From Heminiphilus faecis (GTDB taxonomy: Bacteria > Bacteroidota > Bacteroidia > Bacteroidales > Muribaculaceae): 64,000 bases of DNA. Below the pieces are notes generated by a model that worked only from the letters and a program-made list of their open reading frames with translations, was not told the origin of the DNA and ran no database searches. The position numbers and the translations under genes are program-made. The number at the start of each line of letters is the position of its first letter. Position 1 is the first letter of the stretch. The stretch lies in contig NZ_VSMC01000015.1 of the NCBI RefSeq assembly GCF_008728965.1, forward strand, positions 1 to 64,000, in the 5' to 3' direction. Of the stretch, positions 17,069-27,634 are shown in pieces.

Positions 17069-18100
17069 ATGGACAGCAAGAAAACAGTATTGATATCAGG
17101 GGGAGCCGGTTACATAGGCTCCCACACGGCGGTTGAGCTTATCAATGCCGGTTATGACGTGGTTATAATCGACAACCTTACCAACTCGGAGCGTGATTCT
17201 GTCGCTGGAGTTGAGAGAATCACAGGCAAAAAAGTAGCTTTCGAGGTGGTTGATACCTGCGACAGAGCACAGCTCAAAACGGTGTTCGACACCTACACGT
17301 TCGACACAGTCATACATTTTGCCGCATACAAGGCCGTCGGCGAATCAATGACTGAACCGCTCAAATATTATCAGAACAACCTTGTTTCGTTCATGAACAT
17401 CGTTGCAATGATGAAAGAGTATGGCCGCTCCAATATACTTTTCTCATCGTCGGCAACTGTCTATGGCGATGCTGAACATCTCCCCGTTACCGAACAGACT
17501 CCACGTCAACCAGCGACATCACCATACGGCAACACCAAGCAGATTGCCGAGGATATTCTTCGCGACTGTTGTCGTGCATACGATAATGTCAAAGGAATAG
17601 CGTTGCGCTATTTCAACCCTATCGGCGCACATCCGTCAGCTCTTATCGGTGAGTTACCTCGTGGTGTTCCAAATAATCTTGTACCGTTTATCACACAGAC
17701 TGCCGCCGGTATCCGTGAGCGGCTGAGCGTGTTCGGCAACGATTACGACACTCCTGACGGCACTTGTCAACGTGACTATATCGACGTTGTTGATCTCGCC
17801 AAGGCTCATGTCGCCACAGTCGACCGCATGACCTCCGGAAAGATGAAAGAAAACTATGAAATCTTCAATGTCGGTACAGGGCGTCCGGTCTCGGTACTTG
17901 AACTTCTCACCACATTTGAGAAAGTCAACAATCTCAAACTGCCTTATGTAATCACCGACCGTCGCCCTGGCGATGTGCCTGCTGTATGGGCTGAGACATC
18001 ACGCGCCAACGAGCTCCTTGGATGGAAGGCAGAGCGTTCTATCAACGAGACACTGAAAGCGGCATGGGAATGGGAAAAGCATGTAAGAAAAATCAAATAA
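17069..18100 (+). CDS. galE: UDP-glucose 4-epimerase
   Basis: Interconverts UDP-galactose and UDP-glucose with bound NAD. The protein is 343 residues long. The Rossmann nucleotide loop GGAGYIGSHTAVEL lies at residues 9-22; the active-site Ser/Tyr/Lys set is in SSSATVYGD and in YGNTK (YxxxK). RYFNPIGAHPS and the late motif WEWEKH are typical of GalE. It lies between galK and the nucleotidyltransferase, and the three look like one operon that channels galactose to UDP-sugars. Confidence 0.97.
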   Translation: MDSKKTVLISGGAGYIGSHTAVELINAGYDVVIIDNLTNSERDSVAGVERITGKKVAFEVVDTCDRAQLKTVFDTYTFDTVIHFAAYKAVGESMTEPLKYYQNNLVSFMNIVAMMKEYGRSNILFSSSATVYGDAEHLPVTEQTPRQPATSPYGNTKQIAEDILRDCCRAYDNVKGIALRYFNPIGAHPSALIGELPRGVPNNLVPFITQTAAGIRERLSVFGNDYDTPDGTCQRDYIDVVDLAKAHVATVDRMTSGKMKENYEIFNVGTGRPVSVLELLTTFEKVNNLKLPYVITDRRPGDVPAVWAETSRANELLGWKAERSINETLKAAWEWEKHVRKIK

Positions 18101-18108
18101 ATAATTCA

Positions 18109-19011
18109 ATGAAACCAACATTATTCGTTCTCGCCGCCGGAATGGGCAGCCGTTATGGTGGGCTGAAGCAGCTTGATGGTCTCGGACCTCATGGAGAGAC
18201 TATAATGGACTACTCAATTTACGATGCCATCCACTCAGGATTCGGTAAGGTGGTGTTTGTTATCCGTAAGGACTTCGAGCAAGATTTCCGTGACAAGGTG
18301 CTTGCAAAATATAAAAGTCATATCCCTATGGAAGTGGTGTTCCAGTCAATCGACGAACTGCCCGATGACTACACCTGTCCCGATGACCGAACAAAGCCAT
18401 GGGGTCCGGCTCATGCCGTAATCATGGCTACCGGAGTAATCAATGAACCGTTTGCAGTAATAAACTCCGATGATTTCTATGGCCGCAATTCCTTTGAGGT
18501 ACTCGCCAAAGAATTGATGCGTCCTCGCGATCGCAAAGGCGACTACTGCATGGTTGGCTTCCACATCGGCAACACAATGACAGAGAACGGTGGGGTTAAC
18601 CGTGGCGTATGCCAGACCAAAGATGGATTGTTAACTTCTGTTGAGGAGTGCAAGGATATCGCCTACAACGATAATCATGAGATTGTCTACACAGATGCAG
18701 ACGGGAAAGAGCATAAGCTTGAAGCCAATGTACCCGTGTCAATGAATATGTGGGGCTTCACGCCTGATTATTTCGACTTCGGTATCCGTGAGTTCTCACG
18801 TTTCCTCTCGGAAAAGATCAATGTCCCAAAATCTGAGCAGGTAATCCCTGATGTAGCTGACGCACTGATTAAATCTGGCGAGGCAACGGTTAAGGTTCTT
18901 GACACCGATTCACGCTGGTTCGGCGTGACGTATGTCGATGACCGCCCCGGTGTAATTGCAAATTTTGCAGATCTTCATAAATCAGGCCTTTATCCTGACA
19001 AACTCTTTTGA
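18109..19011 (+). CDS. Sugar-phosphate nucleotidyltransferase (possible UTP:hexose-1-phosphate uridylyltransferase)
   Basis: A 300-residue cytoplasmic nucleotidyltransferase. The start at 18109 follows the galE stop and opens the conserved loop LAAGMGSRYGGLKQ (binding NTP phosphates). The longer frame overlaps galE. INSDDFYG near residue 117 is the metal-binding region and NVPVSMNMWGFTP is typical of this group. No galT is visible in the locus, so this enzyme may make UDP-galactose or UDP-glucose from the hexose-1-phosphate and UTP (inference from position). Substrate specificity cannot be read from the sequence. Confidence 0.8.
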   Translation: MKPTLFVLAAGMGSRYGGLKQLDGLGPHGETIMDYSIYDAIHSGFGKVVFVIRKDFEQDFRDKVLAKYKSHIPMEVVFQSIDELPDDYTCPDDRTKPWGPAHAVIMATGVINEPFAVINSDDFYGRNSFEVLAKELMRPRDRKGDYCMVGFHIGNTMTENGGVNRGVCQTKDGLLTSVEECKDIAYNDNHEIVYTDADGKEHKLEANVPVSMNMWGFTPDYFDFGIREFSRFLSEKINVPKSEQVIPDVADALIKSGEATVKVLDTDSRWFGVTYVDDRPGVIANFADLHKSGLYPDKLF

Positions 19012-19040
19012 TTTATTTTAAGGTAAAATAAGATTGTTAT

Positions 19041-19075: not shown

Positions 19076-19106
19076 AAGACTTTACTATTATAACCATATT
19101 TTCAAC

Positions 19107-20381
19107 ATGAATAGAATTCTCATTGTAGATGCCTCCGAATCCGACCGTCGGCTTATGTCGGGCTTGCTTGTCAAGTCCGGCTATGAGCCGATTGCCGTTG
19201 GGACGATGGAGGCTGCAAAAGACGAGGTGGCGAAACTGCCACCCGGAGCAGTGATTGTCGCGGACGCTTCACTCCGTGACAGCTCTGCAAAAGAGTTAAT
19301 CAACTGGCAGAAGGCCGAAGGATTCACGTTCCCGGTCATCGCCATAGTGAACAACCTGAACGGTCCCGACCTTCTTGAAGTGATGAAAGGCGGCGGAGCG
19401 GTAGATGTGGTGCAACGGGCCGGCATTGACAAGCAGCTCGTTGAAACGGTAGGCAAATACGCCAAGCCGGAGAATATCGTAATCCAGCTTGACAACGCCC
19501 TGATTCCTCGGAGAAGCAACAGCTTCCGTGAAATAGGAAAGGCTATCGGACGAGTCGCCACCACGAACGCCAACTGTATCATTTTCGGAGAAAGCGGTAT
19601 GGGAAAGGAACAGATTGCACGACAGATCTATCTCCAAAGTTCGCGGACACAGAAGCCTTTGAAGGTTCTTGAAGCCGGAGGCGCGCCGCTTGTCGGCAAG
19701 CATGACCCGGAGTCAGACCGCAGCGAAATCTATAACCGCATCGAGGGTTACTTTCAGGAAGTGAAAGGCGGTACACTGATTATCAAGAATATCCAGTTGT
19801 TGACATTCGAGACGCAATCAGTATTACTGCACATTCTTGAACAGGAACACCCCGATGTGAGAATAATCAGCACTGCAAACGGAAATCTGTTGAAGATGGT
19901 AGCGGACGGTAGCTTTCGCGACAATCTTTTCTATATGCTCCGGCAGAGGAGCATTACTGTACCATCTCTACGAGAATCAACGGAGGATATAGCTGATATT
20001 GCGGACTATCTTCTTCAGAGATATGCTCAGAAGAAGCAGCGACCGAAACAGCATCTTGACGCATCTGCGATAAAGGTATTGAAGCTGCATCCGTGGCCCG
20101 GCAACGTCCGAGAACTGAAAGACACTGTTCTTTTCGCCGCCTTCCATGCAAAAGAGGTTGCCATTACCGCTGAGGACATCAGATTTGACGATGCAACCCC
20201 CGAAACAGCGGAGGATTTGACCCATCGCAATCCCAAGTACGAGCGGGACAATATCATCCGGGCATTCAAAAGGGCCGGTACATGGCGAGGCGCGTCAAAG
20301 CTACTTGGTATATCCGAAAGAGCCTTGTTTGAGCAACGTAAGAAGCACGGAATCAATGCTGATGGAAAAATCGAGTCTTGA
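19107..20381 (+). CDS. NtrC/RteB-like response regulator with degenerate ATPase
   Basis: 424 residues: N-terminal receiver-like domain (about 1-120, MNRILIVDASESDRR with possible phospho-Asp in VADASLRD), central AAA+ domain (about 135-345) and C-terminal Fis-type helix-turn-helix (KLLGISERALFEQRKK). The Walker A loop GESGMGKE is intact from Gly161. The Walker B segment, normally ending in Asp-Glu, is GGTLIIKNIQ, with Lys227-Asn228 in those places, and the GAFTGA loop that contacts sigma-54 is missing (EIYNRIEGYFQEVKGG instead). It therefore probably cannot work as a normal sigma-54 activator. RteB of CTnDOT-type elements has the same domain layout, and this gene begins a likely mobile island. 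The assignment to the island is inferred. Confidence 0.8.
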   Translation: MNRILIVDASESDRRLMSGLLVKSGYEPIAVGTMEAAKDEVAKLPPGAVIVADASLRDSSAKELINWQKAEGFTFPVIAIVNNLNGPDLLEVMKGGGAVDVVQRAGIDKQLVETVGKYAKPENIVIQLDNALIPRRSNSFREIGKAIGRVATTNANCIIFGESGMGKEQIARQIYLQSSRTQKPLKVLEAGGAPLVGKHDPESDRSEIYNRIEGYFQEVKGGTLIIKNIQLLTFETQSVLLHILEQEHPDVRIISTANGNLLKMVADGSFRDNLFYMLRQRSITVPSLRESTEDIADIADYLLQRYAQKKQRPKQHLDASAIKVLKLHPWPGNVRELKDTVLFAAFHAKEVAITAEDIRFDDATPETAEDLTHRNPKYERDNIIRAFKRAGTWRGASKLLGISERALFEQRKKHGINADGKIES

Positions 20382-20408
20382 CAACCTCAGGAAAATTTCG
20401 TAACTTTG
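20378..20408 (+). promoter_or_regulatory. Promoter of the putative structured RNA
   Basis: TTG at 20378-20380, exactly 20 nt, then TAACTTTG at 20401-20408: a full match to the Bacteroidota sigma-A promoter. The TTG overlaps the regulator stop codon. Expected start of transcription is about 20415. Confidence 0.75.
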
Positions 20409-20414
20409 CAACGC

Positions 20415-20631
20415 AAATAGCAAATAAATAGCGATTGAAGCGTCAATCGTCTTAACCATATTCATATCATAACACCGCATTTTGTTTTGACGAAAATCTG
20501 GTAAATTTTTGAATACAAGAGCAAATGCGTGAAAGTTATGCTATGCGCAAGCATAGCGTGCTGTCACGTTTTCTTGTATGGGTTTTACCAGAACCTTCGT
20601 TAATAAGCGTGATTAGCACGCTATTTTTTTT
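20415..20631 (+). ncRNA. Putative structured non-coding RNA of the island
   Basis: No open frame of note, but strong nested pairing. A 5' hairpin is formed by CGATTGA and TCAATCG (20432-20449). A long stem follows: TCTGGTAAA (20497-20505) with TTTACCAGA (20584-20592), ATACAAGA (20513-20520) with TCTTGTAT (20572-20579), CGTGA (20528-20532) with TCACG (20564-20568), and GCTATGC (20540-20546) with GCATAGC (20551-20557) closed by a GCAA tetraloop. A terminator, AGCGTG (20606-20611) with CACGCT (20617-20622) plus eight T, ends it. With the perfect promoter at 20378 this predicts an RNA of about 215 nt. Function unknown; the RteR small RNA of CTnDOT is one precedent for a regulatory RNA in such an element, but no sequence match is claimed. 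Confidence 0.7.
20606..20631 (+). terminator. Terminator of the structured RNA
   Basis: 6-bp stem AGCGTG/CACGCT with a 5-nt loop, followed by A and eight T. Confidence 0.7.
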
Positions 20632-20866
20632 ACCCTTATCTGAACCTGATACCATAATATAAAGTCGGCATAAATCGGCAAGCTGTCAGAATTGTTCTTC
20701 TGCCATAAAGATTTAACTTTCAAAATATTTTGCCGATATAAAATTCAGCAACACAGCATATTGTCGATATTAACCATCGTTAAACAACCCTTTTCATAAT
20801 CCCTTCGGTTATAATTGCAAACGAGGCGCAATCCTCGATAAGTCTAACGTAAAAACATATAACCGC
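20632..20866. other. AT-rich gap without a gene
   Basis: No gene seen. A small hairpin, CGAGG with CCTCG, lies at about 20821-20839, just before the next gene. No convincing -7/-33 pair was found, so the downstream genes may use an unrecognised promoter here. Confidence 0.5.
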
Positions 20867-21115
20867 ATGGAGATTACAACTCCCCCAAACGCATCAGGCT
20901 TCAGCAGGAAGCCCAAATCAAAGAGCGGCAAATCAGACCGCAGCCGCAAGACCCGCAACCGCAGACCCGGCAACAATCCTATGGATGAACTGCCCGCGGA
21001 TGCCAACGCGTGGCTGTTCGGATCAATGTTCCTCATGGCAGCCGCCAGACTTCTCGCACCTTTCTTTTCATACAGACAGGCGAAAACCACGGCAACGTCC
21101 GCCACACCCGAATAA
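20867..21115 (+). CDS. Small basic membrane-helix protein of unknown function
   Basis: 82 residues. The first 45 are rich in Lys, Arg and Ser (SRKPKSKSGKSDRSRKTRNR), followed by one probable membrane helix (WLFGSMFLMAAARLLAPFF, about 53-71). I do not recognise a family. It is followed 4 bp later by a helix-turn-helix gene, in the high-GC block 20.9-24.9 kb, and is probably the first gene of that operon. The coding call rests on tight spacing and codon use like its neighbours. Confidence 0.6.
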   Translation: MEITTPPNASGFSRKPKSKSGKSDRSRKTRNRRPGNNPMDELPADANAWLFGSMFLMAAARLLAPFFSYRQAKTTATSATPE

Positions 21116-21119
21116 GCGT

Positions 21120-21503
21120 ATGGCGCAGACTACCGACAAGGACGCGGATTTCAAGACTGCCGCGCAAGCCTATGTCTCACTCGTAGAGCAGCGTGCCAGA
21201 AGCCCCTGCCTTTATCCCGCGAGAGACAGACCGCGACTGACCTTCCACGGAGAGCCTGTAATCCTTCTCGACGACATCATAACCGGGCTTGACATCAGCG
21301 AGAAGACAATAAGGCGATACCGCGACGCAGGAAAAATCAAGGTCTATGAGAGCATAGAGGGAAACATCAAGTTCGTCCTTCAATGCGACCTCGACGAGTT
21401 TCTCGAAAAGTGCTTCATTAGTTCGTCCCATCCAGACTACAGGACTGTGAAGTGCAGAACCAACTCCGGCGGAAACGCCAAAACAACCACCACTAAATCA
21501 TAA
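21120..21503 (+). CDS. Helix-turn-helix (excisionase/MerR-type) DNA-binding protein
   Basis: 127 residues. The start at 21120 sits 4 bp after the previous stop; the longer frame overlaps the upstream gene with low-complexity sequence. The DNA-binding part (about 60-105) has the pattern of helix-turn-helix domain 17 proteins: DDIITGLDISEKTIRRYRD, then AGKIKVYESIEGNIKF as the wing. Proteins of this type serve as recombination directionality factors or accessory regulators in Bacteroidota integrative elements. Two more of the same general fold are encoded at 25085 and 25380. Confidence 0.75.
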   Translation: MAQTTDKDADFKTAAQAYVSLVEQRARSPCLYPARDRPRLTFHGEPVILLDDIITGLDISEKTIRRYRDAGKIKVYESIEGNIKFVLQCDLDEFLEKCFISSSHPDYRTVKCRTNSGGNAKTTTTKS

Positions 21504-21509
21504 TTCATT

Positions 21510-23051
21510 ATGGACCAGACTCCCGATCAGCAGGAAGTGCTGATGGCCCGCGACAACACAAGCGGGAAAGTCGGGGCGGTCGTAGGGCAGAATCCCGACG
21601 GCACCCCCAAGATGGCGGACGTAAAGTCAACGCCTCTCAGTGAACTCATCAAGTTCAACAAAGGGCAGAACCCCCTCGAAGCGTTCATGTCGAATTTTCT
21701 CCGGCAGGCCAAGAACCCTACGATGTTCAGCTTTTTCAGACTGCCAGCCGACAGGTATGAAATGGTCGCGCCCGCAATGGCGGACATAATTCAGGAAGCG
21801 GAGAAAAATGCAGAGATGCTCAGACCCTACGCGGTGGAAACGGACGTCCCCGCCCAGACGGTAAAACCTGAGCAACAATCAGTTCCGGAGCCTCCGGCTC
21901 AGCAGGAACAACAGGCAGTCGAGACACCCCAGCCGCCACAACAGGCACAGACCCCGGAGCCTGAACAATCAGCGCAGGCACAACAGTCCCAACAGCCTGA
22001 ACAGACACTCGCGGCACCTGTCAGGAATGCCCCCATAAACGCGGACAGCATCGACTGGGACAAGATACAGAAGCAATGGGGCATCACACGCGAAGATCTT
22101 GAAAAATCAGGGGCACTCGACCAGATGGTCTATAACCACAAATCGCCGCAGCTTTTCACTGTGACGCCACAATTCGGCGACGAGAAGTTCTCGATTCAGG
22201 CAAAACTCTCTTTCCGCACCAACCCCGATGGCTCATATTCACTTGTGCCACATTTCGTCCGCAACGAGCCGCAGCTCGACAAGGAATACAAGGGCTATAC
22301 ATTCACCGGCGAGGACAAGGCTGAGCTGCGCAAGACCGGCAACCTCGGCAGGGCGGTGGAACTTGCCGACCCCAAGACCGGGGAAATCAAGAGATGCCTC
22401 GTGAGCATAGACAGGCTCACCAATGAAATCGAGTCAATGCCGATAGACAACATCTATATCCGGCGCAAAGTGGCGAACATAGAACTCGACATGCAGGCAG
22501 TCGGCATACTGAAGAACGGCGGCACCATACGGGCGCAGAGCGTCGAACTGCCAAACGGCGCGAAATTTGTCGCCGACCTGCAATACAACGTATCCAAACG
22601 TGATGTCGTTTTCGTCAACTCCGATCTCTACCGCCAGTTGCAGGGACAACAGAACAGCCGCCCGCAACAAGACCAGTGGCACAATGCCGACGGCACTGTC
22701 AAACGCCTTGCCCACTGGTGCAAGATAGAACTGAGCGAACAGCAGCAGAATGACTATCTTGCCGGTAAGAAAGTCCTCGTGGGCGAGGCAAAAGACAAAT
22801 TCGGCAACGACTGCACCGTCTATTTCCAGTATGACCCGGAAAAGCGCGCACCTGTAACCACGCGGATATATCCAGACCGCAACAATGTGGTGGGCATCGC
22901 CGAAGAAAGCAGGACACAGATGGCTGTCAACAATGACGGTGCCACAAACGAGGCCACCAAGAACGTGAAAGAGCCTCTCCAGCGCGGACAGACCGCGCCA
23001 AAGGACGAGAACCAGCAAAGGCAGCAGAAGCCCAAAGGTCCCAGACCCTGA
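21510..23051 (+). CDS. DUF4099/DUF3945-type mobile-element protein
   Basis: 513 residues in three parts. The N-terminal part (about 1-105) holds a helical segment NPLEAFMSNFLRQAKNP. A Pro/Gln-rich linker follows (about 110-170, repeats of QQ, PQ and EPEQ). The folded C-terminal part (about 175-470) starts with DWDKIQKQWGITREDLEKSG, typical of DUF4099, and contains YKGYTFTGEDKAELRKTGN, typical of DUF3945. Such proteins are common in Bacteroidota conjugative and integrative elements, often next to a topoisomerase gene as here. Biochemical function is not known to me. It lies 6 bp after the helix-turn-helix gene. GC content is well above that of the flanking PULs. Confidence 0.8.
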   Translation: MDQTPDQQEVLMARDNTSGKVGAVVGQNPDGTPKMADVKSTPLSELIKFNKGQNPLEAFMSNFLRQAKNPTMFSFFRLPADRYEMVAPAMADIIQEAEKNAEMLRPYAVETDVPAQTVKPEQQSVPEPPAQQEQQAVETPQPPQQAQTPEPEQSAQAQQSQQPEQTLAAPVRNAPINADSIDWDKIQKQWGITREDLEKSGALDQMVYNHKSPQLFTVTPQFGDEKFSIQAKLSFRTNPDGSYSLVPHFVRNEPQLDKEYKGYTFTGEDKAELRKTGNLGRAVELADPKTGEIKRCLVSIDRLTNEIESMPIDNIYIRRKVANIELDMQAVGILKNGGTIRAQSVELPNGAKFVADLQYNVSKRDVVFVNSDLYRQLQGQQNSRPQQDQWHNADGTVKRLAHWCKIELSEQQQNDYLAGKKVLVGEAKDKFGNDCTVYFQYDPEKRAPVTTRIYPDRNNVVGIAEESRTQMAVNNDGATNEATKNVKEPLQRGQTAPKDENQQRQQKPKGPRP

Positions 23052-23098
23052 CAGCCTCTCACCATCCGTCCACAATCAACATACACTGTGATTCAACC

Positions 23099-23235
23099 GA
23101 TACGGTAGCCGGGTTATGACTGTAATCCCGACCACTGAATCCACGTCACGTCCGTAAATATCCCGTCCGGCAACCGTATCACCCAGACAAGTTATCCCTA
23201 CGGCACGGGGATAAGGGCAATCCTGTCCCCGTGCC
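23099..23235 (+). promoter_or_regulatory. Structured leader before the topoisomerase-like gene
   Basis: The 217-nt gap 23052-23268 holds no gene but two strong inverted repeats. GATACGGT (23099-23106) and GCCGG (23108-23112) pair with CCGGC (23167-23171) and ACCGTATC (23173-23180). GGCACGGGGA (23202-23211) pairs with TCCCCGTGCC (23226-23235). Neither is followed by a T-run, so a leader or protein-binding role is likelier than termination. Confidence 0.5.
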
Positions 23236-23268
23236 TTCAATAAATTCACCCTAAACCCACATTAAATT

Positions 23269-24888
23269 ATGATCCTTATTATCTGCGAGAGCATTCTCGC
23301 CACCAAGACCGTCGCCATAGCACTTGGCGCAAACAACGAGACAAGCGAGGGCATCCACACCTCAGGTACATTGACAGTTGCCACAGTGCCGCCCCGTTTC
23401 ATCCGCCACACGCCCCTCGGTGAGATGGCTGACGGAAAAAGTCCGTTCATCCCGGAGAAATTCAGGATGTCCGTCACCGACAAGGAACTGGAACGCGAGC
23501 TGAAGCCCCTGTTCCGTGAGGCATCCGAAGTGGTGTTCGCCTCCGACGGCGGAGCCGACGCACAGGCGCGCTTCTTCAACATCTGCCGCCACTTCCGTGT
23601 GGGCTGTCCCCGAAGCCGTATGTGGATGACCCGGCTCAGCTACGGCGCAATCCGCGGGGCATTCCATTTCCGTGAGTCGGGCCGTCACCTCCACCGCCTC
23701 GCCCAGACCGGACTCGTGTCAAAAGGTATGGATATGCTGTTCGGCTACAATATCAACCAGACCTTACTGCACTTCGGGATTCCCGCCTGCAACCTAACCC
23801 GTCAGGAGGCTGTCTCGCTCTTGTATCTCGGAGAACTCTCCGACCATATAGACTATGTGCAACTGCCGGCAAATCCCGCATATTCAATCCTCGTCAACGC
23901 AAACAGCGGCACGGTGTTCGAGTCCGCAGAGTCATGGGACGATGAGGCGGATGCAGGAGCCGCGCTCGAATCCGTACCCACAGGCGAAACAGTACCCGCC
24001 ACACTGACCATAGAGGAGACCGACAGGTTCAACATGCGTTTCCACACGCTCCTGACACTCCAGATGGACGCCTTCAACAATCTCGGCTTCATGCCCGGCA
24101 AGACGCTGAAAGTTGCGCAGAAACTTTATGACAGGGGGCTTATATCGTCACCTCTGACCGACTGCCCGCACCTTCCCGAAAAACTGCGGGGCCACATCAT
24201 GACGGTGTTCCCCGATGCCGGAGGCTACCTGTGGGGAGACAACGGGGCGACAATCGACAGCCACGCCATAATAACCCTGCGCGCCGCCGACGAGGTGCTG
24301 ACCGCGAGCGAGCTGCAACTCTACCGTCTTATCCTCAACCGTATGAGGGCAGTAATGGAGCAGAACCCCGTCCGCAAGTATGCCACACTGGAGTTCACCG
24401 TCGGCGACAACCGTTTCAGCCGCCGCTGGGAGATAACCGGCGACGCCTATGACGTGACCGAGACAGGCTCTTTCCAGACTCAGGTCGAGATTGCCGATGC
24501 AGGGGTGTATCCCTTCGACCGCCCTGTGGAGTCAAGAGCGTTTTCCGATGTCATCTGCAATCTCACGACAGTGGCAGGCTGTGTCGATGAGTTCATGCAC
24601 ACCGGTGTGCCGTACACGAAGGAGACAAACGATTACGGCAGCGCGATGGGCAGTCTTGTTAACAAGGGACTCGCCATGCTTGACGGCGACGGGATATACC
24701 TCACCCCCGAAGGGCAGGCAATCTATGACCAGTTTTTCGGACACGAGATAGCCGAGATGATACTGACATGGCAGTTCGAGGCGAACTACCTCTACGAAGG
24801 CGACCAGACCGGACGCGGTGTAATCGAAGGCTTCTCCGGCGCGCTTCTTGACCTGATCGGCGAACTTGACCCCGGATGCGGGGCATAA
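23269..24888 (+). CDS. Type IA topoisomerase homologue lacking the catalytic tyrosine
   Basis: 539 residues with the layout of a short topoisomerase III: TOPRIM domain from MILIICESILATK (Glu7 kept), then the gate domains. The catalytic residues are degenerate. The TOPRIM DxDxE block, usually DADREGE, reads DGGADAQ from Asp93. The active-site block, usually I-T-Y-P-R-T-D, reads ISSPLTD, so the nucleophilic Tyr is Ser294 and the adjacent Arg is Leu296. The surrounding sequence (KLYDRGLI before, CPHLPE after) aligns well, so the position is secure. The protein is full length with no frameshift, which argues for selection on a non-cleaving role. Exc of CTnDOT is a topoisomerase III-like protein needed for excision, and this may be a counterpart (inference). 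It follows the DUF3945-type gene. Confidence 0.85.
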   Translation: MILIICESILATKTVAIALGANNETSEGIHTSGTLTVATVPPRFIRHTPLGEMADGKSPFIPEKFRMSVTDKELERELKPLFREASEVVFASDGGADAQARFFNICRHFRVGCPRSRMWMTRLSYGAIRGAFHFRESGRHLHRLAQTGLVSKGMDMLFGYNINQTLLHFGIPACNLTRQEAVSLLYLGELSDHIDYVQLPANPAYSILVNANSGTVFESAESWDDEADAGAALESVPTGETVPATLTIEETDRFNMRFHTLLTLQMDAFNNLGFMPGKTLKVAQKLYDRGLISSPLTDCPHLPEKLRGHIMTVFPDAGGYLWGDNGATIDSHAIITLRAADEVLTASELQLYRLILNRMRAVMEQNPVRKYATLEFTVGDNRFSRRWEITGDAYDVTETGSFQTQVEIADAGVYPFDRPVESRAFSDVICNLTTVAGCVDEFMHTGVPYTKETNDYGSAMGSLVNKGLAMLDGDGIYLTPEGQAIYDQFFGHEIAEMILTWQFEANYLYEGDQTGRGVIEGFSGALLDLIGELDPGCGA

Positions 24889-24957
24889 TCCGCTGTCTCC
24901 GGCATTCCTATCCAAAAATAATCGGCACTACATAGCTGAAAATCGGATAGAAATCGC

Positions 24958-24965
24958 TAACTTTG
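24958..24965 (+). promoter_or_regulatory. -7 element TAACTTTG
   Basis: Perfect TAnnTTTG octamer, about 50 nt before the nested inverted repeat and 120 nt before the helix-turn-helix gene at 25085. Only a partial -33 (CTG at 24936) is present. Confidence 0.45.
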
Positions 24966-24995
24966 CCACTGAATCGCAGTCATAATTTATTTTGA

Positions 24996-25078
24996 TTGTG
25001 GATTTAGTGGTGAGGCAGCGGGAGGGATACCCGCTGCCTTTTTTAACATCCTTATCCACCCACCGCTAAATCCCACAA
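24996..25078 (+). terminator. Nested inverted repeat enclosing an intrinsic terminator (possible attenuator)
   Basis: The inner hairpin GGCAGCGGG (25014-25022) with CCCGCTGCC (25030-25038) is followed by six T, a textbook terminator. It is enclosed by a second, nearly perfect inverted repeat: TTGTGGATTTAGTGGTG (24996-25012) against CACCGCTAAATCCCACAA (25061-25078). The right arm ends 6 nt before the ATG of the next gene. Confidence 0.7.
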
Positions 25079-25084
25079 ATAATT

Positions 25085-25390
25085 ATGGAAGTATTACTAA
25101 TTGAGAAGGATACTCTTGACTGTATTCTCGACGAGCATGAGCTTCTATGCAATATGGTCATAATAATGGCTAACCGCCTGCGCCGAAAGGAAACTGCCGA
25201 TATGATGACCTCAGCCGAGGTCTGCGATTTTCTCCATATAGGCAAGACAACCCTGCAATCGCTCAGAAACAACGGAAAGATAGGCTATATCAGAATAGAC
25301 GACGGAAGCGTAAGGTATCCTGTGATAGAAATTATCCGTTATATGGAGTGTAATGGCATTCATTCTAATAGTGCCGCCTATGGGGAATGA
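25085..25390 (+). CDS. Helix-turn-helix protein, possible excisionase
   Basis: 101 residues. An N-terminal helical part (about 1-38, containing ECNMV-type hydrophobics) precedes a DNA-binding domain: MTSAEVCDFLHIGKTTLQSL, then NNGKIGYIRIDDGSVRYP as the wing (about 41-85). This is the helix-turn-helix 17 pattern of excisionase-like proteins. It overlaps the next gene by 11 bases and both precede the recombinase, which faces them. Likely controls direction of recombination or the island's transcription (inference). Confidence 0.78.
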   Translation: MEVLLIEKDTLDCILDEHELLCNMVIIMANRLRRKETADMMTSAEVCDFLHIGKTTLQSLRNNGKIGYIRIDDGSVRYPVIEIIRYMECNGIHSNSAAYGE

Positions 25391-25679
25391 GATTATAACC
25401 AAATCGGATATGCGTATTATCGCAGCCCGTTCGCAATCACAAAAAGCGTTTGAGGCAGTCGGTATAATACGAGACAGCCATCACCCAGTGCTTGGTGGCA
25501 TCTGTTTTCTTGATGACAAGGAAGTTGCAGAACACCTAAAAGTGACAAGGCGGACAGTACAGAACTATCGGGACCGGGGGATTCTGTCATATTATATGAT
25601 ATGTGGCAAATGCCTCTATCCTGAGCATGAAATACAACAGATGCTTGACGAGAATTTCCATCCGGCATATTACGATTAA
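25380..25679 (+). CDS. Second helix-turn-helix protein, possible excisionase
   Basis: 99 residues from the ATG at 25380, which overlaps the end of the upstream gene. A start at 25353 is possible and would add nine residues. The DNA-binding domain is LDDKEVAEHLKVTRRTVQNY, then RDRGILSYYMICGKCLYP as the wing (about 44-85). It resembles the proteins at 21120 and 25085 in pattern but not closely in sequence. It is convergent with the recombinase gene, whose stop lies 68 bp away. Confidence 0.78.
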   Translation: MGNEIITKSDMRIIAARSQSQKAFEAVGIIRDSHHPVLGGICFLDDKEVAEHLKVTRRTVQNYRDRGILSYYMICGKCLYPEHEIQQMLDENFHPAYYD

Positions 25680-25746
25680 GCAGCAAACAAATGATGAGCG
25701 GCAACCGAGAATTTAACTCGATTGCCGCTCTGTCATTTATGTGACA

Positions 25747-27063
25747 TTACGATTTTTTGGGTCGTCCGCGCTTAGGCAGGGGAGGACGCTCGAACGTGGT
25801 TGGCTTCTCTGGCAACGGTTTGATGTCAACTTTCAGACTGTCGAATTTATCTCTCATGCGTCCCATATCTTCGGATACGGTCTGGTCAAGCATTGTGGCA
25901 TAAATCTGAGTCGTGGCAATGTCTTTATGCCCCAGCATCTTCGACACTGTTTCGATAGGCACATGATTGTTGAGCGACATTGTAGCGAACGTATGGCGCG
26001 CGATATGGGTTGTCAGATGCTTCTTGATGTCCGCTTTTGATGCTATCTCATCAAGATACGAGTTCATGCGCTGGTTTGAGATGACCGGGATTACGGTATC
26101 CTTTTCCACAACACGGGGATGGCTCCTGTATTTCTCCATCAGTCTGCGCGGTATCTCCAGTATCGGGATAACGCTCATCTCGTCTGTTTTCTCACGGGCC
26201 TTGCGTATCCACATCTCTCCTTTGTCATCAGTGACGATATGTTCGCGTTTGAGGGTTGAGATGTCTGCGAACGCCAGTCCTGTGAAGCAGCAGAACACGA
26301 AAGTATCGCGCACGAGGTCGAGACGGGGAAGTTCGCTGAGGTCAAGCTCTATGATACGCTGGAGTTCGGTCTCAGTCAGTTTTTCCCTCTTCGGCTTTGT
26401 GCGTACATAGCGTTTGCCTACGAATGGATCATCGTCAATCCATTTGTTCGCGATGCCGGTGCGTACCACGCTTTTGAGATAGCGGATATAACGGACGGCG
26501 GCATTGTTGGCACAACCCTTCTTTATTCGCAGGAAATGCTCGAAGTCGTCAACCATTCCGGAAGTCAGTTTCTTCATCGGAATATCTTTCACATCCTGAT
26601 TGTCGATGAGGAATTCCTCCAGATACTTTACGCATCGCTCCCAACGCAGGCGCGTACCCTCGCAGATGTCGCCGCGCTCGTTCCTGTCCTTGACCTTCTT
26701 GTTCAGCTCTCTGAACGCTTCACAGAGCATCGTCGGCTTTTGCAGCTTGCCGAGGAAGGCTTTTTTAAGGGTGTCGGGATTTACCATCTCATCACGCATC
26801 ACGAGCTGATTGTGTATCTCGCAGATTTTGGTACGGATGGTGTCAAGATAACGGTTCAGTTCAAGGTCTTTCTTTGTTTTACCTTTCGACTGACCTTTGG
26901 ACGCGTCCCAGTTGGCGGGGGCTACATACCTGTTGGTATATACCTCCGCACGTTGCCCATTCATTGTTATTCGTAACAGAATGGGAAATTCGCCCTCCTT
27001 GTTCGGGCGGCTTCTCCTGACCATGAAGTTCAGAGAGAAGTAACACTCATTGGATAATTTCAT
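25747..27063 (-). CDS. Tyrosine recombinase (IntDOT-like integrase)
   Basis: 438-residue integrase that would insert and excise the island at tRNA-Lys. An N-terminal arm-binding domain (FMVRRSRPNKEGEFPILLRI) and a SAM-like core-binding domain (about 110-210) precede the catalytic domain. The first catalytic Arg region reads FTGLAFADI, with Ala where Arg is usual; replacement of this Arg is known in IntDOT-type integrases. The remaining motifs are standard: HIARHTFAT (HxxR), MLGHKDIATTQIY with His and the nucleophilic Tyr. It is transcribed from its own promoter at 27090-27120 and ends in a Pro/Lys-rich tail. Confidence 0.93.
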   Translation of the reverse strand: MKLSNECYFSLNFMVRRSRPNKEGEFPILLRITMNGQRAEVYTNRYVAPANWDASKGQSKGKTKKDLELNRYLDTIRTKICEIHNQLVMRDEMVNPDTLKKAFLGKLQKPTMLCEAFRELNKKVKDRNERGDICEGTRLRWERCVKYLEEFLIDNQDVKDIPMKKLTSGMVDDFEHFLRIKKGCANNAAVRYIRYLKSVVRTGIANKWIDDDPFVGKRYVRTKPKREKLTETELQRIIELDLSELPRLDLVRDTFVFCCFTGLAFADISTLKREHIVTDDKGEMWIRKAREKTDEMSVIPILEIPRRLMEKYRSHPRVVEKDTVIPVISNQRMNSYLDEIASKADIKKHLTTHIARHTFATMSLNNHVPIETVSKMLGHKDIATTQIYATMLDQTVSEDMGRMRDKFDSLKVDIKPLPEKPTTFERPPLPKRGRPKKS

Positions 27064-27089
27064 TTGTCATGTGGCTTTAATGGTTAAAC

Positions 27090-27120
27090 TAAAGATACAT
27101 AATTTTTCTCGGTTATACAA
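27090..27120 (-). promoter_or_regulatory. Promoter of the recombinase gene
   Basis: On the minus strand, TTG (27118-27120), 20 nt, TATCTTTA (27090-27097): one mismatch from the -7 consensus with ideal spacing. The ATG lies 27 nt downstream at 27063. Confidence 0.6.
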
Positions 27121-27159
27121 ACTGTAAATCCGAAGGACAAATGAAATTTCCGGGTTTGC

Positions 27160-27448
27160 GAGGTGGCAAAACAACCAAATCCACGAATAATGTAGAATTG
27201 CCACCTCGAATTGCCACCTTTTCATAACTATTTTTAACTATGACGATAGCTAAAAATGCGTCAAGGAACAGCTGAGGACAATATGCCTAACAAACTCTGG
27301 CTGATGTTCAGGATTATTCTTTTGCCACCTGCAACCACCCTGCGAGGTGGCAGATATATAATGGTTTCTATCCTTGTAAGGCTTTGAAAAATAATGAAAT
27401 ATAGTCTTTCGAGGTGGCAAATTATGGTGGGAATTTTATTGCCACCTT
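27160..27448. repeat. Seven copies of TTGCCACCT in both orientations
   Basis: In the gene-free stretch between recombinase and tRNA-Lys, TTGCCACCT or its complement occurs at 27198-27206, 27211-27219, 27322-27330 and 27439-27447 on the plus strand, and as AGGTGGCA(A) at 27160-27169, 27344-27352 and 27411-27420. Several are flanked by a conserved C or CG. The arrangement of short repeats in mixed orientation beside an integrase gene and its tRNA target is that expected of arm-type integrase-binding sites (inference). Confidence 0.75.
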
Positions 27449-27502
27449 TTTGCACACCCGCAGTTTCAATATTTTGCGCCGGACGGGGACAAGGGTAAAA
27501 AG

Positions 27503-27534
27503 AAAAACCTCTGAAAATCAACGATTTTCAGAGG
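27503..27534 (-). terminator. Terminator of tRNA-Lys
   Basis: CCTCTGAAAATC (27508-27519) and GATTTTCAGAGG (27523-27534) form a perfect 12-bp stem with a 3-nt loop. Read on the minus strand it is followed by TTTTTCTTTTT. Confidence 0.85.
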
Positions 27535-27561
27535 AATTCGTCGGTCTGATAGACCCTTCTG

Positions 27562-27634
27562 TGACCCCGGAGAGGCTCGAACTCTCGACCCAATGATTAA
27601 GAGTCATTTGCTCTACCAACTGAGCTACGGAGTC
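27562..27634 (-). tRNA. tRNA-Lys (anticodon CUU)
   Basis: A 73-nt cloverleaf: acceptor GACTCCG with CGGGGTC, D-arm GCTCAGTTGGTAGAGC, anticodon stem AATGA/TCATT with loop CTCTTAA, T-loop GTTCGAGCC. The 3' CCA is not encoded. Its 3' end faces the repeats and recombinase, so it is the probable attachment gene of the island. Confidence 0.95.

Follow-up and report, generated by a model that had tools for sequence, protein, structure and literature searches.

A topoisomerase III homologue with serine at the catalytic tyrosine position, a syntenic counterpart of CTnDOT Exc, in Heminiphilus faecis and its relatives

Excision of the conjugative transposon CTnDOT involves the integrase IntDOT, Xis2c, Xis2d and the topoisomerase Exc. 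Exc is said to have been studied by Sutanto and others and by Wood and Gardner, and a mutant without its catalytic tyrosine reportedly supports excision. To our knowledge, what the topoisomerase does in the excision of conjugative transposons of Bacteroidota is an old open point. Here we analyze a gene of Heminiphilus faecis (Muribaculaceae) from the 64,000 nucleotides at positions 1 to 64,000 of contig NZ_VSMC01000015.1 (hereafter the window), whose product is a topoisomerase III homologue with serine at the position of the catalytic tyrosine and belongs to a family that shares this serine. With moderate confidence, and from sequence comparison, we read the protein as a naturally cleavage-deficient Exc of a CTnDOT-like excision module, presumably inactive in DNA cutting and with a putative role in excision. 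Among the titles listed in our literature search, none concerned a tyrosine-less topoisomerase III in mobile elements; the primary papers on CTnDOT Exc lay outside that search.

Active-site residues of the window protein

The open reading frame (ORF) encodes 539 amino acids (aa) with a topoisomerase III (type IA) fold spanning the whole protein. Its coordinates (Table 1), the SPLTD at residues 294-298 and the DGGADAQ at 93-99 are as given in a preliminary description of the window, which had also proposed that Ser294 replaces the tyrosine and Leu296 the arginine. Both replacements are borne out by alignment. The nucleophilic tyrosine of the ITYPRTD block is absent, and three kinds of alignment place Ser294 there. 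Based on phmmer, Ser294 falls at the nucleophilic tyrosine of topoisomerase I, and based on a profile alignment, along which the residues were counted, it corresponds to Tyr328 in the LITYPRSD of E. coli topoisomerase III and Leu296 to Arg330. BLASTP pairs LISSPLTD of the window protein with LITYPRTG of the CTnDOT-type protein, and Ser294 lies in the tyrosine column of a MAFFT alignment with 51 Tyr-type homologues. The catalytic Arg, Lys and His around the tyrosine are all replaced (L296, S8 and S331). Compared with E. coli topoisomerase III (1d6m, 2o5c), the equivalents of Tyr328, Arg330, Lys8 and His381 are thus all changed, and that of D105 is Gly.

The statement in the preliminary description that the Toprim acids are changed is too strong, because the window protein has both Glu7 and Asp93, and Gly is the usual residue at the column of Gly95 in the topoisomerase III of the phylum (50 of 51 Tyr-type sequences). 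What does differ is the third acid, Asp97, which is Glu in 50 of the 51, and Gln99, which is Glu in all 51; Gln109 occupies the same place in E. coli topoisomerase III. The Pfam model Topoisom_bac matches the window protein at 53.3 against a cut-off of 35.1, Pfam Toprim does not match it, and the curated topoisomerase III model NF005829 scores 67.5 bits, below its cut-off of 597. The C-terminal repeat domain PF13342, which is present in the CTnDOT-type protein, has no match in the 539-aa form, so that the earlier label "full-length" calls for caution.

Extent and conservation of the serine-type family

We aligned 77 non-identical ORFs over all fetched loci. The tyrosine column holds 51 Tyr, 26 Ser and nothing else. 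A match of at least 68 bits was found in 22 of a sample of 397 genomes of the same family, and the copy fetched from each of the 22 has serine, so that the replacement is neither chance nor sequencing error. In a tree of 64 of the 77 sequences (13 were dropped as near-copies, partial or masked), the 16 Ser-type sequences form one clade with support of 100/100 and a stem length of 3.96. The 24 full-length Ser-type sequences, on which invariance was counted, fall into nine lineages at 85% clustering, with a lowest pairwise identity of 24%; two partial sequences were left out, and L030, which is partial, reads ITSPYT. The clade is under purifying selection. Pairwise ratios of nonsynonymous to synonymous substitution (dN/dS) are 0.15-0.20 in the window subfamily and 0.07-0.30 in other subfamilies, the estimate being rough for several pairs with dS >1.

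Ser294 is invariant, as are only 35 of the 539 columns. The Arg after the tyrosine position is lost in 22 of the 26 Ser-type sequences, and Lys8 in 17 of the 24 in which it is determined. Of the 24 full-length sequences, L012 alone still has the first His of the HH(A/G)I motif, the other 23 having lost it. Among the Toprim acids, Glu7 persists in 20 of the 24 sequences in which it is determined and Asp93 in 22 of 25 (Asn in the other 3), and the third is either Asp or Glu in all 25. No Ser-type sequence has lost the Arg of the GRVQT motif or the Gln of the LQ pair. Among 136 columns that are at least 90% conserved in Tyr-type sequences, the Ser clade keeps 17, has refixed six (A98, Q99, M118, R135, G290 and S294) and varies in 113. 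According to the preliminary description, a naturally inactive form would imply that selection preserves a structural, non-cleaving role. The tyrosine is indeed lost throughout a clade under purifying selection. The invariant serine, together with five further residues that have become fixed, suggests that an old scaffold has not just been passively retained.

A 655-aa Ser-type subgroup (L025 and L026-L029) has lost Glu7 and Tyr160, and L026-L029 have also lost Asp93; it retains the Arg after the serine, the opposite of the window subgroup. A second Ser-type protein in the same genome (contig C19:8073-10028; L002, L059, L108), about 32% identical, sits in another element beside an intact tRNA-Lys (TTT).

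Beyond the family, a Ser-type query among 375 genomes of the class returned only the genome of the window itself. At E 1e-30, the profile of the Ser family matched 21 of 393 genomes of the order and 18 of 395 of the phylum, its own genome counted; the loci outside that genome that were fetched and aligned are all Tyr-type, a few weaker matches lying outside this set. Phage (8 records) and plasmid (78 records) collections gave only distant matches of <60% identity, and the top plasmid match, pGSB-24, is Tyr-type. Among viral contigs, 30 stretches fitted the search patterns and none encoded a relative. Because the wider genome searches score few candidates per genome (three as printed) and the contig scan, in which 20 of 53 stretches were confirmed, was built on the Toprim motif in its Ser-type form, intermediate forms were possibly missed.

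Synteny with CTnDOT-type modules and mobility of the cassette

Other Bacteroidales have Tyr-type homologues, about 695 aa long, that adjoin a DUF4099/DUF3945 gene, helix-turn-helix (HTH) genes and an integrase (loci L120-L122, L126 and L127); L125 is without HTH matches, and L123, L124 and L128 are without an integrase match. Based on family models, L122 contains the topoisomerase, DUF4099/DUF3945, HTH_17 genes, three integrase domains, an N6-methylase/helicase and tet(Q), which is cut by the end of the locus. The record NZ_OR675140.1 (B. fragilis strain 214_V8GG) has the order integrase, HTH, DUF3945, type IA topoisomerase, N-6 methylase and tet(Q). From the strain name and the length we infer that this record is CTn214, which PMC10865816 compares with CTnDOT, naming a putative excision operon. 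In PMC2873492 a conjugative element has a 709-aa product that bears the label "Excisionase".

The window has a comparable arrangement. Reading rightward, a sigma-54 regulator, an HTH gene, DUF4099/DUF3945, the topoisomerase and two HTH genes are followed by a convergent integrase and a tRNA-Lys (Table 1). A DUF4099/DUF3945 gene lies directly upstream of the Ser-type topoisomerase in all 15 relatives read, a window-like HTH gene precedes it in 12, and an integrase is in view in 13; in L106 the integrase is not convergent. Like the CTnDOT-type loci (NZ_OR675140.1, L122), the window thus has a protein of the topoisomerase III family and fold at the end of an HTH - DUF4099/DUF3945 - topoisomerase run; further HTH genes lie close by, and the three Pfam domains of the integrase are the same in both. 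Based on this synteny, which matches tet(Q)-bearing CTnDOT-type elements and upholds the link to Exc drawn in the preliminary description, the window gene is the syntenic counterpart of Exc. The proteins differ in the serine for tyrosine, in the altered Arg, Lys and His positions and in the missing C-terminal repeat match, and the window protein is 25% identical to that of L122 over 362 columns. The host topoisomerase III of the same genome (contig C25) is homologous over residues 11-363 at 23% identity, carries the motifs YPRVD and DAGQEGE, and branches apart from the Ser-type in the tree.

Table 1 Features of the Ser-type module in the window
Feature	Position	Strand	Remark
Sigma-54-type response regulator	19107..20381	+	Leftmost gene common to several Ser-type loci with differing left flanks
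Small HTH protein (HTH_17, below curated cut-off)	20985..21503	+	First of the HTH - DUF4099/DUF3945 - topoisomerase run
DUF4099/DUF3945 protein	21510..23051	+	Directly upstream of the topoisomerase in Ser-type loci; adjoins it in CTnDOT-type modules
Ser-type topoisomerase III homologue (539 aa), syntenic counterpart of Exc	23269..24888	+	Ser294 for Tyr; E7/D93/D97 Toprim acids
HTHa, HTH_17, excisionase-like	25085..25390	+	Adjoins the integrase
HTHb, HTH_17, excisionase-like	25353..25679	+	Adjoins the integrase
Tyrosine integrase	25747..27063	-	Arm-DNA-bind_5, SAM_5 and catalytic domains; same set in the CTnDOT-type integrase
CGAGGTGGCA motif	27156..27421		Three direct copies, inverted copies by eye; between integrase and tRNA-Lys; possible integrase arm sites
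Intact tRNA-Lys (CTT)	27561..27634	-	3' end faces the integrase; likely integration target

The Ser-type protein is 95-96% identical in two other genera (G081 and G130), in which the host topoisomerase III is 73-74% identical. The corresponding values for the Ser-type protein and the host enzyme are 71% and 83% in a genome of the same genus (G037), 64% and 63% in G292, and 42% and 72% in G074. Copies this similar in distant genera point to horizontal movement of the module. A 511-aa Ser-type copy from a record under the name Bacteroides muris (L047) differs little from Muribaculaceae copies (dN 0.02, dS 0.12-0.19), pointing to transfer between families.

The compact stretch common to the window and G037 extends over about 8.5 kb (19087-27560), and the 8 proteins scanned in it include no relaxase or transfer gene. 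The stretch shared by the cassettes reaches to 25110, about 0.2 kb beyond the topoisomerase, and the integrases that follow it in L106 and L039 are 28% and 56% identical to that of the window, so that the cassette is reshuffled. Although relatives of the flanks turned up, no clean empty site was identified among them. At 10 of the 14 Ser-type loci with an integrase in view a tRNA lies about 0.3-0.5 kb off, its 3' end towards the integrase, unlike any of the six CTnDOT-type loci (L120-L122, L125-L127), several loci in each set being near-copies. The ten are the window, L107, L108, L044, L045, L049, L052, L053, L054 and L058; the tRNA is absent from L039, L040, L106 and L050, the last of which ends about 0.5 kb past the integrase. 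As a lead, the loss of cutting may accompany a shift from scattered targets to fixed tRNA targets.

The sigma-54-type regulator, whose receiver domain is below cut-off, travels with the module, and its place recalls that of RteB in CTnDOT. To the left of the element, the gene at 18040-19040 looks by eye like a sugar nucleotidyltransferase; contig C25 of the genome carries a second copy with 71% DNA identity.

Possible roles of the serine-type protein

That a diverse family keeps the serine suggests a task for the protein, within the element, beyond the usual cutting of DNA. In our reading, the protein is an Exc that has lost the nucleophilic tyrosine but retains its fold and some of the site for single-stranded DNA. 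At the att sites, or on a recombination intermediate, it would bind DNA that is opened or single-stranded, and would help the integrase and the HTH proteins to drive excision of DNA that it does not itself cut.

Several observations weigh against this interpretation. A cassette combined with integrases as different as those of L106 and L039 is a poor fit to a tight contact between integrase and Exc, only 8 of the 15 relatives show a recognisable pair of HTH genes next to the integrase, and the operon is inverted relative to the integrase when compared with the annotated record NZ_OR675140.1. On nesting among the Tyr-type Exc proteins, the tree shows an open fork at its base, with no sister group fixed for the Ser clade, and a long stem. 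A search for direct repeats of at least 11 bp that would mark the left end found none, giving two 9-mers only. In one 511-type copy (L046/L015, contig C64 of the metagenome-assembled genome G073) the gene stops about 35 codons early; this stop may be real or an assembly error. Finally, Tyr160 is Tyr in 20 of the 24 full-length Ser-type sequences and in none of the 51 Tyr-type sequences.

The last point would suit an active topoisomerase with another tyrosine as nucleophile, for which Tyr287 and Tyr352 are further candidates. The 655-aa subgroup has Ala or Thr in place of Tyr160 (4 of 24), so that this residue cannot be a nucleophile for the whole clade. Tyr287 is Phe in 6 of 24, Tyr352, the sole invariant Tyr of the Ser-type sequences, is also found in all 51 Tyr-type sequences, and it is Ser294 that aligns to the position of Tyr328; we consider this explanation hardly credible. 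As little can be said for a decaying remnant of an old topoisomerase gene. Its low score with the curated model, the missing C-terminal repeat match and the relative with an early stop could be taken as decay, but dN/dS is well below 1 in every measured pair, and together with the invariant residues that persist across 24% identity this argues strongly against it.

The main competing explanation is that the protein has left excision for another DNA-binding job, such as operon control, protection of the circle, or support of replication or transfer. The residues fixed only in this clade, the stem length, the joining of the cassette to unrelated integrases and the regulator that accompanies several copies would all fit such a change, but the constant DUF4099/DUF3945 neighbour and the integrase near most relatives speak against it, and we regard it as unlikely. 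It is also conceivable, if rather improbable, that the invariant serine itself is functional, in a serine-based type IA cleavage or in a dedicated non-cutting recombination factor in which it holds the DNA phosphate at the spot once attacked by the tyrosine. That the protein is still an enzyme, cleaving a strand with this serine and the Toprim metal site, draws on the rarity of invariant columns and on E7, D93 and D97 (or Glu), which are mostly kept. However, E7 is lost in 4 of 24 determined sequences and D93 is Asn in 3 of 25, and the positions of Arg330, Lys8 and His381 differ by lineage, unlike those of a conserved active site, which makes such an enzyme very unlikely.

A cleavage-deficient Exc is the reading that we retain. 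A natural clade without the cutting residue, in which the gene, its neighbours, selection and spread are nevertheless kept, would part a DNA-binding role from a cutting role, and would do so without an engineered mutant. Annotations of "type IA DNA topoisomerase" in mobile elements need to be checked for the tyrosine.
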